Source: Candidatus Cloacimonas acidaminovorans str. Evry (GTDB lineage: Bacteria > Cloacimonadota > Cloacimonadia > Cloacimonadales > Cloacimonadaceae). From it: a DNA stretch of 64,000 nt. The stretch covers positions 1,588,654 to 1,652,653 of the forward strand of contig NC_020449.1 of assembly GCF_000146065.2 (NCBI RefSeq). Direction: 5' to 3'. The notes under the pieces are model-generated. The model was not told the origin of the DNA. It did no database searches and was given only the letters and a program-made list of their open reading frames with translations. A program made the position numbers and the translations under genes. Below, piece by piece: positions 5,738 to 34,710 of the stretch. Position 1 is the first letter of the stretch. Each line of letters opens with the position of its first letter.

Positions 5738-5763
5738 TTTCTCAGCTGAAAATCGTAAATTTA

Positions 5764-6016
5764 ACGAGGGGCTTACGCCTCCATCGCTATCATTGTGTCG
5801 CCCTTACGGGCTTTTGGGAAAAGGGAAAGGTAAAAAGAATAGAAATTCGGGCTTTTATTTTAACGAGGGGCTTACGCCTCCATCGCTATCATTTTATCGC
5901 CCTGACGGGCTTTTGGGAAAAAGGAAAGGAAAAAAGAATAGAAATTGGGGCTTTCATTTTGACGAGGGGCTTACGCTTCCATCGCTATCATTGTGTCGCC
6001 CTGACGGGCTTTTATG
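5764..6016 (+). repeat. Three tandem family C elements
   Basis: There are three plus-oriented copies at about 5764, 5863 and 5962. Each reads ACGAGGGGCTTACGC, CCATCGCTATCATT, then a TCGCCCTGACGGGC hairpin and TTTT. They are joined by similar about 45-base spacers (GGGAAAAGGGAAAGG..., GAATAGAAATT). Reading frames through this region are repeat artefacts, not genes. Confidence 0.85.
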
Positions 6017-6018
6017 AA

Positions 6019-6126
6019 ATCTCAACCTTATAAACCTTCTCAACCTTCTAAACTCTCTAAGCCATCTCAACCTTCTCAACCCTCTAAACTCTCTAAACCA
6101 TCTCAACCTTTTCAACCCTCTCAACT
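6019..6126 (+). repeat. Family D 9-bp minisatellite
   Basis: About twelve units of CTCAACCTT/CTAAACCCT. It begins six bases after the third family C copy with the linker ATGAAAT. In a frame it reads as a Ser-Gln-Pro/Ser-Lys-Pro repeat, but there is no start or ribosome binding site. Confidence 0.85.
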
Positions 6127-6233
6127 TTTTTCATTCTAATTCTTTATCTCGCTTTGCAGAATTCCCTTGCCAAAAAATCACTTTCCCTATTGTATTACCA
6201 AGCAAGAAAATCAAGCCAAAGGACGGTTAGGAA

Positions 6234-16646: not shown

Positions 16647-16660
16647 TGATCTGGAATTGA

Positions 16661-17118
16661 CAAGGTTTTTGGGTTGAGAAGGTTTAGAGGGTTTTGAAGG
16701 TTGAGAAGGTTTAGATGGTTGTGAAGGTTGAGAGGGTTGAGAAGGTTTAGAAAGTTTAGAGTGTAGAGATACCTTAAAGCCCAGAGGGCGATACAATGAT
16801 AGCGATGGGTGCGTAAGCCCCTCGGAAAAAAAGTTTGAGAGGGTTGAAAAGGTTTAGAAGGTTGAGATTTCATCAAAGCCCGGAGGGCGATACAATGATA
16901 GCGATGGGTGCGTAAGCCCCTCGGGAAAAAAGGTTGAGAGGGTTGAAACTGTTTAGAAGGTTGAGATTTCATCAAAGCCCAGAGGGCGATACAATGATAG
17001 CGATGGGTGCGTAAGCCCCTCGGGAAATGAAAGCTCCGAGTTCCTTTTTTCACCACATCTGGAAAAATAAGCCCCTTAGGGCGACACAATGATGTAGAAG
17101 GTGGCGTAAGCCCCTCGG
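16661..17118 (-). repeat. Array of four family C elements interleaved with 9-bp minisatellite D
   Basis: On the minus strand, C copies end at 16776-16824, 16875-16924, 16974-17024 and 17068-17118. Family D arrays of GGTTGAGAA/GGTTTAGAG units occupy 16661-16770, 16829-16870 and 16931-16968, each directly downstream of a C element. The linkers are ATGAAAT or AAGGTAT. Proline/serine-rich reading frames through here are artefacts of the repeats. Confidence 0.85.
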
Positions 17119-17144
17119 AAAATTCACGATGTAAACAGCGGGAG

Positions 17145-17638: not shown

Positions 17639-17872
17639 ACGAGGGGCTTACGCCACCATCTACATCATTGTATCGCCCTGACGGGCTTTTGGAAAAGGGG
17701 AAGATAAAAGGAAAAAGGAACTCCGGGCTTACATTTTCCGAGGGGCTTACGCACCCATCGCTATCATTGTGTCGCCCTACGGGCTTTAAGGTATCTCAAC
17801 CTTCTCAACCCTCTAAACCTTCTAAACCTTCTAAACCTTCTCAACCCTCTCAACCCTCTCAACCTCTTCTAT
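17639..17872 (+). repeat. Two family C elements followed by 9-bp minisatellite D
   Basis: C copies lie at 17639-17690 and 17739-17788, with a linker containing GGAACTCCGGGCTTACATTT. A D array of about nine CTCAACCCT/CTAAACCTT units runs from 17790 to 17872. The array ends close to the 3' end of the minus-strand mlaF-like gene. Confidence 0.85.
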
Positions 17873-17882
17873 TTAGTTCTGT

Positions 17883-18590
17883 TCAGTAGCAGATTTCAGA
17901 TAAATCAATAACCTGCGTTGCTATTTCGCCTGTAAAATCATCGTCACTGGTGCCAATTAACATTTCCTGCAAACAGAGCTCTTCCCTATTTCCGCTTTTG
18001 GTGTATCCGGAGGACGCTGTTCCTCCTCTTTTTTTACTATGTTTCTGCAAAAAACCCAAAAGCAATCTTCTTTCTTCTTTATTGAACAAATAATAGGGAT
18101 CGTCAATCAACATAATCTTCGGTTTCAAGAGTAAAGACCGAATAAAGCAAAAATACTTGCGCTCTGCTGGGCTTAAATATGCAGGTCTTAATTCCCATCC
18201 GCAATTCAAATTCAGCTCTTCCATCAAAAGTTTCAGTTCTTGTTCAAAAGCATTATAGTCCTCGCTGGCAAACCTTTTGTTCCAAGGTAGCAGCAGATTC
18301 TCTCGCAAGGAAAGATTGGAAAGCATTATCCCTTCATCAAACACGAGGGAAAAGGTGGAAATAAGGGAATTTTGCCTACAATATTCCTCCAGGGAAATGC
18401 CATCCAGCAAGATATTGCCTTCATCCAAATTATACAATCCCATTAAAGCAATTAAAATAGTAGATGAATACTTTTCACAGGGATCATAAAGCACAGTACA
18501 ACCATCTGTGGTAAAATTAAGATTGAAATTGTGCAATAAACCATTTATAGAAACATTCTTAAAGGCAATATGCACTATGCACCTATCCAA
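17883..18590 (-). CDS. MlaF-like ABC ATPase subunit lacking catalytic residues
   Basis: 235 residues with the layout of an ABC nucleotide-binding domain, paired with the MlaE permease that precedes it (16-base overlap). The Walker A site is degraded: DPCEKYSST stands where GPNGAGKST is expected, so the P-loop glycines and the lysine are gone. The signature is LSPAER rather than LSGGQ. Walker B is present (KIMLIDDP near 160). The H-loop histidine is absent (LIGTSDDDF). A palindromic repeat is translated in frame as part of the C-terminal loop (RGGTASSGYTKSG). It may be a pseudo-ATPase with a structural role or a decaying gene. The reading frame is fully open, which argues against simple decay. 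Confidence 0.72.
   Translation of the reverse strand: MDRCIVHIAFKNVSINGLLHNFNLNFTTDGCTVLYDPCEKYSSTILIALMGLYNLDEGNILLDGISLEEYCRQNSLISTFSLVFDEGIMLSNLSLRENLLLPWNKRFASEDYNAFEQELKLLMEELNLNCGWELRPAYLSPAERKYFCFIRSLLLKPKIMLIDDPYYLFNKEERRLLLGFLQKHSKKRGGTASSGYTKSGNREELCLQEMLIGTSDDDFTGEIATQVIDLSEICY
18002..18026 (-). repeat. In-frame palindromic element inside the mlaF-like gene
   Basis: The core GGAGGACGCTGTTCCTCC, preceded by TGTATCC, matches 23 of 25 bases in batE at 52536-52560. It encodes GGTASSGYT in a loop of the ATPase-like protein. Confidence 0.75.
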
Positions 18591-19336
18591 AATAGCCAGG
18601 AAATAATTAAATCCAAAATAAGCACGGAAAAAATAGAAATAACCACTGCCTTGATAGTGCGTTGCGGAACTTCCGTTGATGCCCTGTAAACACTCATCCC
18701 TTCATAAGAGGCAGTTATGGCTATTACAAAGCCGAAAATAACGGATTTGAGGATGGTCATTAAAATATAAGGAAAGGTTAAAACCGACAAAAAATCATTC
18801 ATAAATGCCCCAAATGATAAATGATTGAAAAACTGAGCAAAGAGCCAACCACCTAAAACAGCAATTATATTGAAATAAAGGGTTAATACCAGCATAGAAA
18901 TTACTACCCCCAAAATACGCGAGACAACAAGATAACCCATCGGCGCGATGTCAAAGGATTTCAACAATTGCATTTCCCTGTTCACAACCATATTTCCCAA
19001 CTCGGTAGAAATCGCTGTTCCACTTCTGGCTATTACTACTAAAGCGGTTATAATTCCACTCAATTCTCCAACTACAACCCTCACCAAAATTATGTGCACC
19101 CAAATCCCCTGCCCGAAATTGCTCAAAAAAGCATAACCCTGCATAATGGTTAAACAGCCAATTGCCAAAGCAATAAAACCGATTAAAGGCAGCGCCTCCA
19201 CTCCCGTAAACAAAATTTGCCGAATAACCACTAACAAACTTACATGCCTGTTATGTTTGATATGCAATAACTCGGTTACTGTTTCTTCCAAAAACAAAAA
19301 AAAGTCCCTGAGGGACTTTTTTCTATTGTGTTGCAT
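18575..19336 (-). CDS. mlaE: MlaE-family lipid transport permease
   Basis: 253 residues with about five to six membrane helices. It carries the MlaE family core ARSGTAISTELGNMVVNREM (residues about 103-122, the loop that contacts the ATPase) and a conserved end (KAVVISIFSVLILDL). MlaE permeases move phospholipids between inner and outer membranes together with an ATPase (MlaF) and an MCE protein (MlaD). The ATPase-like gene follows with an overlap. No MCE gene is in the window, so the complex may be incomplete here. The first codons overlap a terminator-like hairpin at 19298-19322; a TTG further down could be an alternative start. Gene assignment is firm, the start less so. Confidence 0.88.
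   Translation of the reverse strand: MQHNRKKSLRDFFLFLEETVTELLHIKHNRHVSLLVVIRQILFTGVEALPLIGFIALAIGCLTIMQGYAFLSNFGQGIWVHIILVRVVVGELSGIITALVVIARSGTAISTELGNMVVNREMQLLKSFDIAPMGYLVVSRILGVVISMLVLTLYFNIIAVLGGWLFAQFFNHLSFGAFMNDFLSVLTFPYILMTILKSVIFGFVIAITASYEGMSVYRASTEVPQRTIKAVVISIFSVLILDLIISWLFWIGA
19298..19322 (-). terminator. Terminator-like hairpin inside the start of mlaE
   Basis: AAAAAAGTCC CTGAG GGACTTTTTT is flanked by A and T runs on both strands. On the minus strand it lies 42-66 bases after the small secreted protein's stop and within codons 5-13 of mlaE. It could end the upstream transcript or attenuate mlaE. Confidence 0.7.
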
Positions 19337-19363: not shown

Positions 19364-19720
19364 TTATTTCAGAATAAGCGTCTTCTTTAAGGAAGTATAC
19401 CGGGTAGAAAAATTAACTACGACAAGATATTCGCCATCAGGAACATAATTGCCACAGCTATCAGTCCTTTCCCAATTTAAATAAATGTCCTTACCCACAA
19501 AACCTTCGTATAGATCGCAAATAACTTTGCCATCACAGCTCTGAATCTGAACATTGATATTAAGAGGAACAGACACAGCTAAAGAAATTACACATTCCTT
19601 AAACATAGGATTGGGAGTAATGTCAAAACTCTCAATAGGAGAGCCCTTATAAGCATACCCAGCTGTGGCTATCAACATTAACATTGCCATCAGCGCCAGA
19701 ATGAGCATCGTTTTTTTCAT
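19364..19720 (-). CDS. Small secreted protein made of a signal peptide and a FlgD-like Ig domain
   Basis: 118 residues. The ATG at 19720 follows AAGGAG by 8 bases; an in-frame GTG at 19729 is less likely. A signal peptide (KKTMLILALMAMLMLIATAGYA) is followed by one beta-sandwich. The sandwich has the features of FlgD-like or T9SS-type C-terminal domains: DITPNPM, DGKVICDLYEG, LNWERTDSCGNYVPDGEYLVVV and a final KKTLILK. Normally this domain ends a much larger secreted protein; here it stands alone. A terminator-like hairpin follows. It could be a remnant of a larger protein or a small independent surface component. Role not known. Confidence 0.75.
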   Translation of the reverse strand: MKKTMLILALMAMLMLIATAGYAYKGSPIESFDITPNPMFKECVISLAVSVPLNINVQIQSCDGKVICDLYEGFVGKDIYLNWERTDSCGNYVPDGEYLVVVNFSTRYTSLKKTLILK

Positions 19721-19761
19721 TTTATTCACTCCTTATTTAATGCCTGATTAAAAAGCAAGTT

Positions 19762-20679
19762 TCATTCCTCTTTGCTATTAAACTTATCTTCTATCAGTTT
19801 TATAGCTCCTAAAACTCCTGCCTTATTGCCATTTATTGCTTTAGCAACCTTTACTTTAGCACTATGTGCAGCTGGCAATCTTTTTCTTATCTCACTTTCC
19901 AATTCCTCTATATAATATAATCCCAAATCCATAGCTCCGCCACCAATAATTATTATTTCCGGATCAAGACAAGTAGCAAGACAGGATAAAGCAATGGCTA
20001 ACATAAGTTGACCCTGCTTAATGTAATCCGCTACTACTGTATCGGTTTCCTTTATAGCAAGGATGGCAGATAAATCCATTTCCGCATAACGGGGATTTTT
20101 TAACGCCAAGCGTCGGCGTAAACCCTCTCCTGAAGAATACGCTTCCAAACAGCCATTTTTCCCACAATTGCATTTTAATCCTTTATCCACAATGCATATA
20201 TGACCTAATTCACCGGCAAAACCATAAGCACCGTGATAAATTTTGCCGTCAATAACTATTCCGCAACCGATACCACTGCCGACAGTAACACCAATAACAT
20301 AATTCTTTTTTTGCGTATACGACTCGGCTAAAGCCATCAAATTGGCATCGTTATCAAAAGCGAAAGGAATATTACAATTTTCGGGAAGCAATTCACGCGG
20401 ATGGTGCTCCACCCAAAAAGGCAAATTGGGATTGTTTTCTGTTACCAAACCCGTGGTTTTATCTATTGCACCTGGCATTCCGATTCCGATTCCCTTTATA
20501 TTGTTAAGCCCGATTTTACTGTCAACATCGTTAAACAACTCTTTCGCCACAGCAAAGAAGTCATCTATGTTTTTCCTTTGCAGAACAAGGGTTTGATAGG
20601 ATTGTAAACCTTCTTCACAGTTGCCCCAGCCATACTTAAAACTGGAACCTCCAATATCTATGCCTAAAAATATATTCAT
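19762..20679 (-). CDS. ROK-family sugar kinase (glucokinase-like)
   Basis: 305 residues, a cytoplasmic ASKHA kinase. It shows the N-terminal phosphate loop LGIDIGGSSFKYGW, the catalytic Asp in FDNDANLMALAE, the ROK signature region GAYGFAGELGHICI and the zinc motif CNCGKNGCLE. It has no DNA-binding N-terminal extension, so it is a kinase rather than a ROK repressor. Glucokinase is the likeliest activity, but N-acetylmannosamine or fructose kinases look similar at this level. It stands alone between the small secreted protein and the tRNA cluster, with no sugar genes nearby. Confidence 0.9.
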   Translation of the reverse strand: MNIFLGIDIGGSSFKYGWGNCEEGLQSYQTLVLQRKNIDDFFAVAKELFNDVDSKIGLNNIKGIGIGMPGAIDKTTGLVTENNPNLPFWVEHHPRELLPENCNIPFAFDNDANLMALAESYTQKKNYVIGVTVGSGIGCGIVIDGKIYHGAYGFAGELGHICIVDKGLKCNCGKNGCLEAYSSGEGLRRRLALKNPRYAEMDLSAILAIKETDTVVADYIKQGQLMLAIALSCLATCLDPEIIIIGGGAMDLGLYYIEELESEIRKRLPAAHSAKVKVAKAINGNKAGVLGAIKLIEDKFNSKEE

Positions 20680-31081: not shown

Positions 31082-31205
31082 TATTGCTCCTTGTGTTAAT
31101 TACATTTCTTTCTATTCTTTACTTGAAAATTAAAAGCGTTGAATATGTCAATTGCTTTTTAGAATGCTATTATATCAGCAACGCCGAGAGCAAAGGGCAG
31201 AGGGC

Positions 31206-31272
31206 CTCTAAACCCTCTAAACCTTCTCAACCATCTCAACCCTCTAAACCTTCTCAACTCTCTAAACCCTCT
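31206..31272 (+). repeat. Family D 9-bp minisatellite without a family C partner
   Basis: About seven CTAAACCCT/CTCAACCAT units lie between the divergent gcvPA promoter region and the 3' end of the metalloprotease gene. The sequence before it (AGAGCAAAGGGCAGAGGG) resembles 34470-34500. Confidence 0.75.
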
Positions 31273-31292
31273 TTAATTTTATATTCTTCATT

Positions 31293-32682
31293 TTACATTC
31301 CCTTCAGTTTCAGCAGTTTTGTTGTAACAATCTTTCCGTTTGTTTCCAGACGGCAAAAGTATAATCCGCTACCGACTTTATTTCCTGAAGAATCCTTTCC
31401 GTTCCATTCCAGTTCATAATTTCCGGCTTTTTTATTTTCCGCCTGCAGAGTTGTAACTTTCTGACCTTTAATATTGTAAATGGATAGATTTACTTTACTG
31501 CTTTCGGGCAGGGAATATTTGATTTTATTGGTTTCGGTAAAGGGATTGGGGTAGCTGGAAAGAGATAAATTTACAGCAGGAATACAAGGATCATCGGAAG
31601 CAACATTAGGTTTTTGTAAAAGCAATTCTATTCCTGCAGAGCCAACAACGCCTCTACCTAAAGCATCAGTCCATATTCTATTGGGCTCTGTAATCCAGCT
31701 GTGACCACAGGAGGCATTTTGGTCAAAACAGATATTTTGATATTCAAAAAGGTCTAATATTACGGCAATCTGACCTGAAATGCTTGTTGTATCAGATATT
31801 GTGTATACAAAGTTGGGATCATAACCAGTATTAAAAATATAACCGATGCTCAATAAAACCTGTTCCGTAATTGCTCCATTGGCAAAACGATTTATTTGAG
31901 CAACAACAAGTCCCGGAATATCAGGTTCTCCCCAGGGATCAGGAGTTATCTTAAAACGAAGACCTTTTACAAGGTATTCCTGAGTTCCCAAATCCATATT
32001 TACGGCAACTTTTATGGGAATAGCACCCCGAGAGTATTCTGTCCAAAGCGGTTCAGGAGAAATCCAGGAAAACCAATTTTGCAGGTTAGGATCAATTATC
32101 CGGTAATAAACATTCAGGTTTGTAGTCAGATTGGAAGCAGAAAAAGCGGTTATTCCTATATTATGAACTCCTGCAGTTAAAAGGTTACCATTAATTTCAC
32201 CGGAAAAAGGTTCGCTATCTGCCGTATAAACTAAAACACCATCAAGCGTATATTCCACTCTTAACAAAGCGTTTGCGGGATCAGTTATCTGGAGATTTAG
32301 CTGAATTGTTTCCGCTGGTAAAATAGAACCACTGGCAGGAGATATAGAACTAATTACAGGAGCCATTGATTCAGTTGGTGAAGCCAGAGTAAAACTAATG
32401 GTTTCTCCTGCAGAAGTGATATTTTTGAGATTTATCGGAAAAGTGTTTCCATTATTTAAAAAGGACTGAGGATTGGTATAAACATTAAAGGCAGTTCTAT
32501 AATTATCAGCGCTGAAAGGGGCTTCAGCAACCAATCCATTATGGGTTAAAGTTCCATTGGGTCTATAAACATAAATTCCCTCAGGGGGTCCATCAGCATT
32601 GCCTTCAAACCTTTGATCAATTCTATAAATCAATAGTCCCGAGCCGGGTAATTTCTCTTCAAAAACATCACTCCCCTTTTTT
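31293..32682 (-). pseudogene. M6-family secreted metalloprotease, C-terminal part with sorting domain (after frameshift)
   Basis: This frame continues the protease from GSDVFEEKLPGSGLLIYRID, finishing the catalytic domain (about 80 residues). It then carries Ig-like modules (ISSISPASGSILPAETIQL) and a FlgD/Por-type C-terminal sorting domain (SSYPNPFTETNKIKYSLPE..., SSGNKVGSGLYFCRL, final KLLKLKGM). It has no start of its own at the natural boundary. The break is in an A6-G4 homopolymer run (32673-32682); removing one base would fuse both parts into one protein of about 860 residues. Confidence 0.8.
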
Positions 32683-34357: not shown

Positions 34358-34412
34358 TAACCCAAATAATGCAGTTGAGGAAAAATGGGTTGGCAAATTC
34401 CGATTTGCCATA
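34358..34412. repeat. Half copy of family F
   Basis: AACCCAAATAATGCAGTTGA, then GGAAAAATGGGTTGGCAAA and GATTTGCCA, match the left arm and loop of the full copy at 24263. It runs directly into a family C element. Confidence 0.7.
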
Positions 34413-34418
34413 ATTTTC

Positions 34419-34469
34419 CGAGGGGCTTACGCACCCTTCTACATTATTGTGTCGCCCTGAAGGGCTTTT
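34419..34469 (+). repeat. Family C element
   Basis: CGAGGGGCTTACGCACCC, TCTACATTATTGTG, then TCGCCCTGAAGGGC and TTTT. Confidence 0.85.
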
Positions 34470-34517
34470 AGCAGAGGGCTAAGAGCGAAGAGCAGAGAGT
34501 TTTTTCCCCATTTGTAA

Positions 34518-34654
34518 CGAGGGGCTTACGCACCCATCGCTATAGAAGTTTCGCCCTTCGGGCTTTTTGGAATCTCAACTTTCTCAACTCTCTAAACCCT
34601 CTCAACCTTCTAAACCTTCTCAACTTTCTCAACCCTCTCAACCTTCTAAACTCT
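34518..34654 (+). repeat. Family C element followed by 9-bp minisatellite D
   Basis: The C part is at 34518-34567, with CTATAGAAGTT in place of CTATCATTGTG. The linker TTGGAAT is followed by about nine CTCAACTTT/CTAAACCCT units. Confidence 0.85.
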
Positions 34655-34710
34655 TTTTTGCGATTGGTTAACAAGGATGCCAACCTTCCGAAAAATAAAG
34701 CTCTTCCGGC

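Follow-up and report, generated by a model that had tools for sequence, protein, structure and literature searches.

The stretch of DNA analysed here (the window, 64,000 nucleotides from Candidatus Cloacimonas acidaminovorans str. Evry) contains a permease gene of the MlaE family and, directly after it, a gene encoding a degenerate ATPase. Both open reading frames were confirmed on the minus strand where the first-pass annotation had placed them, and two genes that are syntenic in the family lie upstream of the pair:

17883-18590, minus strand: pseudo-ATPase, a degenerate MlaF/MceG-like nucleotide-binding domain (NBD), 235 amino acids from TTG (Pfam ABC_tran)
18575-19336, minus strand: MlaE-family permease "MlaE2" of system C, 253 amino acids (Pfam MlaE)
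19364-19729, minus strand: small FlgD-Ig/secretion-tail-like protein (Pfam match on an orthologue)
19762-20679, minus strand: ROK-family sugar kinase-like protein

MlaE2 is a full-length MlaE protein (Pfam PF02405, 190 bits, 5e-56, 212 of 212 positions) with MlaE and YrbE1A as its solved structural relatives, and it scores under the cut-offs of TIGR00056 (133 versus 212 bits) and NF033619 (113 versus 315 bits). The pseudo-ATPase matches ABC_tran (PF00005) at 40.8 bits against a cut-off of 25. At the gene junction, GCATAGTGCAT, the permease stop codon TAG overlaps a GTG at 18575 in a shared TAGTG, an arrangement that points to translational coupling of the two genes. Because this GTG agrees with the starts of the orthologues, the real protein probably begins there and is about 230 residues long.

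The motifs of the pseudo-ATPase were read against those of an intact MlaF from the same genome (LGSSGCGKTTL, LFQSG, ELSGGM, CDEPS and VTHEL), and the aligned counterparts are YDPCEKYSSTI, VFDEG, YLSPAE, IDDPY and GTSDD. The protein has no Walker A motif, Q-loop glutamine, LSGGQ signature, catalytic glutamate or H-loop histidine, and of these motifs the Walker B aspartate alone is retained. The positions, assigned by alignment and, for the Q-loop and H-loop, also by conservation, are as follows:

18459-18485, minus strand: former Walker A, DPCEKYSST, residues 36-44
18336-18338, minus strand: Q-loop position, Asp85 for glutamine, within the conserved FDEGIMLSNLSLRENLLLP block
18162-18176, minus strand: former LSGGQ signature, now LSPAE, residues 139-143
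18099-18104, minus strand: Walker B Asp163, retained, and Asp164 for the catalytic glutamate
17976-18038, minus strand: low-confidence insertion of about 21 residues (AlphaFold, repeat search)
17946-17948, minus strand: H-loop position, Ser215 for histidine, in the family motif SxDDDF

The first-pass annotation had described the Walker A lysine and the H-loop histidine as lost, and the comparison bears this out, with the P-loop lysine and glycine gone and a serine at the histidine position. Its statement that Walker B is kept is correct for the aspartate and incorrect for the catalytic glutamate, and the changes in the Q-loop and the signature are additional to what it had listed. The window protein and the members of families f1 and f11 also end about 25 residues before MlaF1, whereas those of f13, f10 and f9 are longer. 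The window protein thus has no MlaF-type C-terminal extension, the segment of about 25 residues that MlaF requires for assembly of MlaFEDB (PMC7367683).

The insertion harbors a dispersed 24-bp repeat, GGTGTANCCGGAGGACGCTGTTCC (core 18000-18023). The genome has 17 copies of it at up to 3 mismatches, against 0 in a control with the reversed sequence, and the repeat is similar to the palindromic or REP-like elements that invade coding frames. A separate set of repeats occupies intergenic sites, where arrays of a 9-bp unit, CAACC[CT]TCT or AAACC[CT]TCT, lie at 16660-17130, 17640-17880, 5740-6140, 31180-31310 and 34390-34660. These arrays adjoin 99-bp repeats with AGGGGCTTACGC...TCGCCCT and lie both downstream of the pair and between other genes.

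The AlphaFold model of the pseudo-ATPase has an intact nucleotide-binding-domain fold (pLDDT 91.7). Its best Foldseek match is MceG of the Mce1 complex (8fed_H), and further matches are other NBDs, among them MlaF (6xbd_I and 7d06_B), with a TM score of 0.75 to MlaF. The Q-loop region of ABC transporters faces the coupling helix of the permease. In MlaE this helix lies between TM2 and TM3 and binds MlaF (PMC7790496). Its motif in the window permease is NREMQLL, in contrast to the EExDA-type TEEIDAL of MlaE1 and SEQIDAL of MlaE3, and the alanine is replaced by leucine in all 41 system-C permeases.

Orthologues of the permease are present in 41 of 125 genomes of the phylum at 43-89% identity, and wherever the flank is readable an ATPase-like gene follows directly; the reading frames are open. 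Among the system-C ATPases of Cloacimonadota the Walker A lysine is found in 7/40, the first signature glycine in 0/40, the catalytic glutamate in 5/40 and the H-loop histidine in 0/40. The MlaF1 proteins of the same genomes have all motif residues in 21/21 (the window genome counted), and so do the MlaF2 proteins with the exception of the first signature glycine (19/21). The losses are graded, with a lysine in a GKS or GKE P-loop kept in f10, f5 and f9, the Q-loop glutamine in f13, and mainly the Walker B aspartate in f1, the family of the window genome, where it is found in 22 of 25 proteins. The first-pass annotation had reasoned that orthologues with an intact GxxGxGKST would point to a local mutation or a sequencing error. 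No intact P-loop occurs in the 25 aligned orthologues of the window protein's own family, and only distant proteins of Cloacimonadota (f10, f5 and f9) and Spirochaetes have one; a local event or error is therefore excluded.

Selection on the system-C pair is purifying, with an omega of 0.08-0.14 where it is measurable (f13 pairs). Between the window pair (G000) and its nearest relative (G003), dN is 0.35 for the pseudo-ATPase versus 0.07 for the permease, about fivefold, and because dS is saturated no dN/dS is given for this comparison. Within f1 the former P-loop and signature have entropies of 1.93 and 2.09, both looser than the protein mean of 1.74. The Q-loop block facing the transmembrane domain, FDEGIMLSNLSLRENLLLP, is as tight (0.56) as its equivalent in the active MlaF1 (0.55), and the replacement motifs LIDDPYYLLN and SxDDDF are conserved.

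That no MCE gene is present, as the first-pass annotation had stated, is true of the window and not of the genome, which encodes a dedicated MCE protein, MCE2, at G000:C1:187694-188773, 1.42 Mb from the pair. MCE2 matches PF02470 at 1.2e-8; in a phmmer search YebT chains rank first, weakly. Orthologues of MCE2 were found in 41 genomes, 40 of which also have a system-C permease; the two genes are both present in 40 genomes, single in 1 and 1, and both missing in 83, a distribution for which Fisher's test gives 2e-30, a value that overstates independence since the genomes are related. Joint absence also occurs inside genera g1, g7 and g8 and across all of g6. The MCE2 gene stands immediately after the pseudo-ATPase gene, in one operon, in 27 of 40 genomes, and a TPR lipoprotein gene comes next where flanks were read, which gives the core order MlaE2, pseudo-ATPase, MCE2 and TPR lipoprotein. 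In this genome the operon is in two parts, with the first two genes in the window and the other two 1.42 Mb away. Judged by order and co-occurrence, the four genes belong together. No gene for a STAS protein (MlaB) was found in this conserved core operon, and outside the four genes the neighbors in f13 and other lineages are different. A gene for a FabI-like enoyl-ACP reductase lies after the lipoprotein gene in several f1 operons (L096:1878-2642, with orthologues in L093, L094, L103, L105 and L106), a possible link of system C to fatty-acid supply.

The first-pass annotation had proposed looking elsewhere in the genome, a single contig of 2,246,820 bases, for further mlaE, mlaF and mlaD genes, and the search returned three MlaE genes, three MCE genes and two intact MlaF genes. 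System A is a complete operon of a STAS-MlaE fusion (MlaE1), intact MlaF1 and MCE1; it is MlaE1, and not MlaE2, that carries the fused STAS-like N-terminal part. System B is dispersed here, with an orphan MlaE3, an orphan intact MlaF2 and MCE3 far apart (L091:4984-5700, L037:4432-5223); in many f10 genomes MlaF2 adjoins MCE3, and we infer that MlaE3 is part of this system. Some MlaE1 matches (G115:C13, G111:C205, G114:C147, G036:C28 and G035:C50) and several MlaE3 matches have a single stop codon (TAG, TGA or TAA) in the matched or extended frame, which may reflect an overlapping neighboring frame, an assembly error or a pseudogene. We considered MCE1 and MCE3 as partners of system C and rejected both, MCE1 as part of a canonical operon and MCE3 as near universal and beside MlaF2 in many genomes. 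A hidden dedicated ATPase was likewise rejected, because the clearly MlaF-like sequences among its roughly 33 ABC domains are limited to MlaF1 and the orphan MlaF2 in this genome. Both of these are near universal in the phylum, with or without system C, and so neither tracks it.

In a wider scan that covered 84,980 species genomes, the system-C permease turned up in Ignavibacteriota, Bacteroidota, Spirochaetota, Bdellovibrionota, Aminicenantes, Acidobacteriota, Nitrospirota, Kiritimatiellota and others. Nearly all of these permease genes have an adjacent ATPase-like gene, and most have genes for MCE2 and the lipoprotein as well. Cultured bacteria with the operon include Psychrosphaera sp. B3R10 and Alkalispirochaeta alkalica, in both of which the ATPase retains the Walker A lysine. 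In the permease tree the system-C proteins form a clade apart from MlaE1 and MlaE3. The Walker A lysine is present in 15/15 Spirochaete ATPases (the histidine in 8/15) and in 0/12 of those from Ignavibacteria/Chlorobi, so that the ATPases form a series from near-intact (Spirochaetes) through half-dead (f10) to dead (f1 and Ignavibacteria). The permease tree calls for at least 4 switches in Walker A state; by itself it does not tell loss from gain, and the exact number is uncertain because the tree was built quickly and includes several long branches.

A pair of NBDs makes up two composite ATP sites, and in each of them one subunit contributes the P-loop, Walker B and histidine while its partner contributes the signature. 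As a homodimer, the pseudo-ATPase has no ATP site. If it paired with MlaF1 or MlaF2, the mixed dimer would also be without a complete site in lineages that have lost both P-loop and signature, the window lineage included, because the P-loop would be missing from one site and the signature from the other. With no site in either dimer, MlaE2 would be free of ATP hydrolysis, or a full MlaF homodimer would replace the pseudo-ATPase. Of the options raised by the first-pass annotation, either passive lipid movement or a non-catalytic subunit with an ATPase encoded elsewhere may therefore apply.

We prefer the reading, to which we give about an even chance, that the pair makes up the inner-membrane part of a third, accessory MCE system in which the pseudo-ATPase acts as a clamp and lipids pass without ATP hydrolysis by the system itself. 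The clamp role is suggested because the NBD fold and the Q-loop block, which contacts the coupling helix of MlaE, are both kept. The pseudo-ATPase would clamp the MlaE2 dimer and an MCE2 hexamer in a state that is fixed or slowly gated, lipids would pass between the inner and outer membranes by a long MCE2 bridge, and the TPR lipoprotein would serve the outer-membrane end. Lipid supply or demand would provide the driving force, with no ATP hydrolyzed by the system C complex. The long bridge is a guess, because the AlphaFold model of MCE2 (mean pLDDT 60.6) is confident for the TM helix and the MCE domain alone. The K47A and E170Q mutants of E. coli MlaF do not complement (PMC7367683), and loss of such residues would therefore kill a normal Mla pump. 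Some points weigh against this reading. Walker B mutants of M. tuberculosis MceG destabilize Mce1 and Mce4 (PMC9947336), and an ATP-dead scaffold is thus not automatically stable; the newly conserved blocks of f1 may make it so. The f10, f5 and f9 proteins, with their lysine in a GKS- or GKE-type P-loop, might bind ATP, and a homodimer of MlaF1 or MlaF2 could dock on MlaE2.

The main rival explanation, which we consider rather unlikely, is that MlaE2 is powered by intact MlaF1 or orphan MlaF2, and that the pseudo-ATPase, in the role of assembly chaperone, placeholder or inhibitor, gives way to it. Both proteins are intact and occur nearly throughout the phylum, MlaF2 is encoded apart from any MlaE permease here, so that work in trans already seems to occur, and Mce1 and Mce4 appear to use a common ATPase, MceG (PMC9947336). 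However, the mixed dimer would lack a complete ATP site where P-loop and signature are both lost, the coupling-helix motif of MlaE2 is unlike those of MlaE1 and MlaE3, the pseudo-ATPase accompanies its permease wherever the flank is readable, and MlaF1 and MlaF2 are there regardless of system C, which no ATPase tracks. It is improbable, in our view, that MlaE2 and the pseudo-ATPase transport no lipid themselves and instead regulate MCE2 or the other MCE systems as a sensor or gate that responds, for example, to the supply of lipid or acyl-ACP. New motifs such as LIDDPYYLLN and SxDDDF would be expected for a new ligand or partner, and genes for a FabI-like protein, a ROK kinase and an amidohydrolase lie near in several f1 genomes. 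Nevertheless, the neighbors past the four core genes vary in f13 and other lineages, and the conservation of a whole MCE protein and a lipoprotein alongside the pair in different phyla matches a transporter layout.

Some pseudo-enzymes prove active, and the conserved acidic motifs and the Walker B aspartate of most f1 proteins would suit slow binding and hydrolysis of nucleotide by way of the replacement residues; we hold this to be very improbable, as the f1 P-loop and signature are, unlike an active site, unconstrained. Decay of the locus, another suggestion of the first-pass annotation, or a local mutation or sequencing error has next to no chance of being the explanation. The faster divergence of the pseudo-ATPase over its permease, the dispersed repeat inside its frame and the absence of system C from 83 of 125 genomes would fit decay, but the conservation data refute it, since the pair is retained in 41 genomes with open frames, the same motif losses and a low omega, the block facing the transmembrane domain is sharply conserved and the fold is confidently predicted.

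Degenerate ABC proteins and ATPase-free MCE conduits both have precedents that differ from system C. Pqi/Let (YebST)-type systems are MCE lipid conduits that operate with a partner in the inner membrane and lack an ABC ATPase; in contrast to system C, the partner is PqiA or LetA and not MlaE with an NBD, and each MCE protein has several MCE domains. The components of PqiABC are set out in PMC10897342. MlaFEDB of E. coli and A. baumannii resembles system C in its MlaE-type permease, its MlaF-type NBD fold and its co-encoded MCE protein, but its MlaF is an active ATPase whose K47A and E170Q forms are dead in vivo (PMC7367683). Mycobacterial Mce1 and Mce4 share with system C the YrbE/MlaE permeases and long MCE proteins, as well as having an ATPase encoded apart from the permeases; their MceG is active and shared, whereas MlaE2 has a dead NBD of its own that goes with a single permease clade, and no active ATPase follows system C across genomes. 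The minimal MlaEFD system of Veillonella parvula has a similar three-gene layout, with an MCE protein of double length proposed to span the periplasm and an mlaF that, unlike the dead ATPase of system C, closely resembles that of model diderms; the sections of that paper drawn on here do not describe a TPR lipoprotein or a dead ATPase (PMC10665443). Single degenerate sites are well known from heterodimeric ABC exporters, and TAP, TM287/288, BmrCD and MRP1 have NBDs without catalytic residues as system C does (PMC7756269), yet they retain one canonical site and system C encodes only dead NBDs, although an MlaF from outside the system might join it. Searches of an open-access literature collection turned up no description of a catalytically dead ATPase in an MCE system, of a degenerate MlaF or of a Cloacimonadota MCE system.

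Carried beyond the phylum, our preferred reading would mean that a widespread MCE class, present at the least in Cloacimonadota, Ignavibacteriota and Aminicenantes/Acidobacteria, has lost ATPase activity repeatedly and become an ATP-independent transenvelope lipid conduit whose former motor is a structural or ligand-sensing clamp, a proposal that we put at a little short of an even chance. The direction and the energy source of phospholipid movement between the membranes of diderms are an open question, and the natural series of MlaE-MCE operons, intact apart from an ATPase that ranges from near-intact to dead, is a ready test of whether lipid transport by MCE systems needs ATP. It also makes it unsafe to annotate every neighbor of an MlaE gene as part of an ATP-driven pump.
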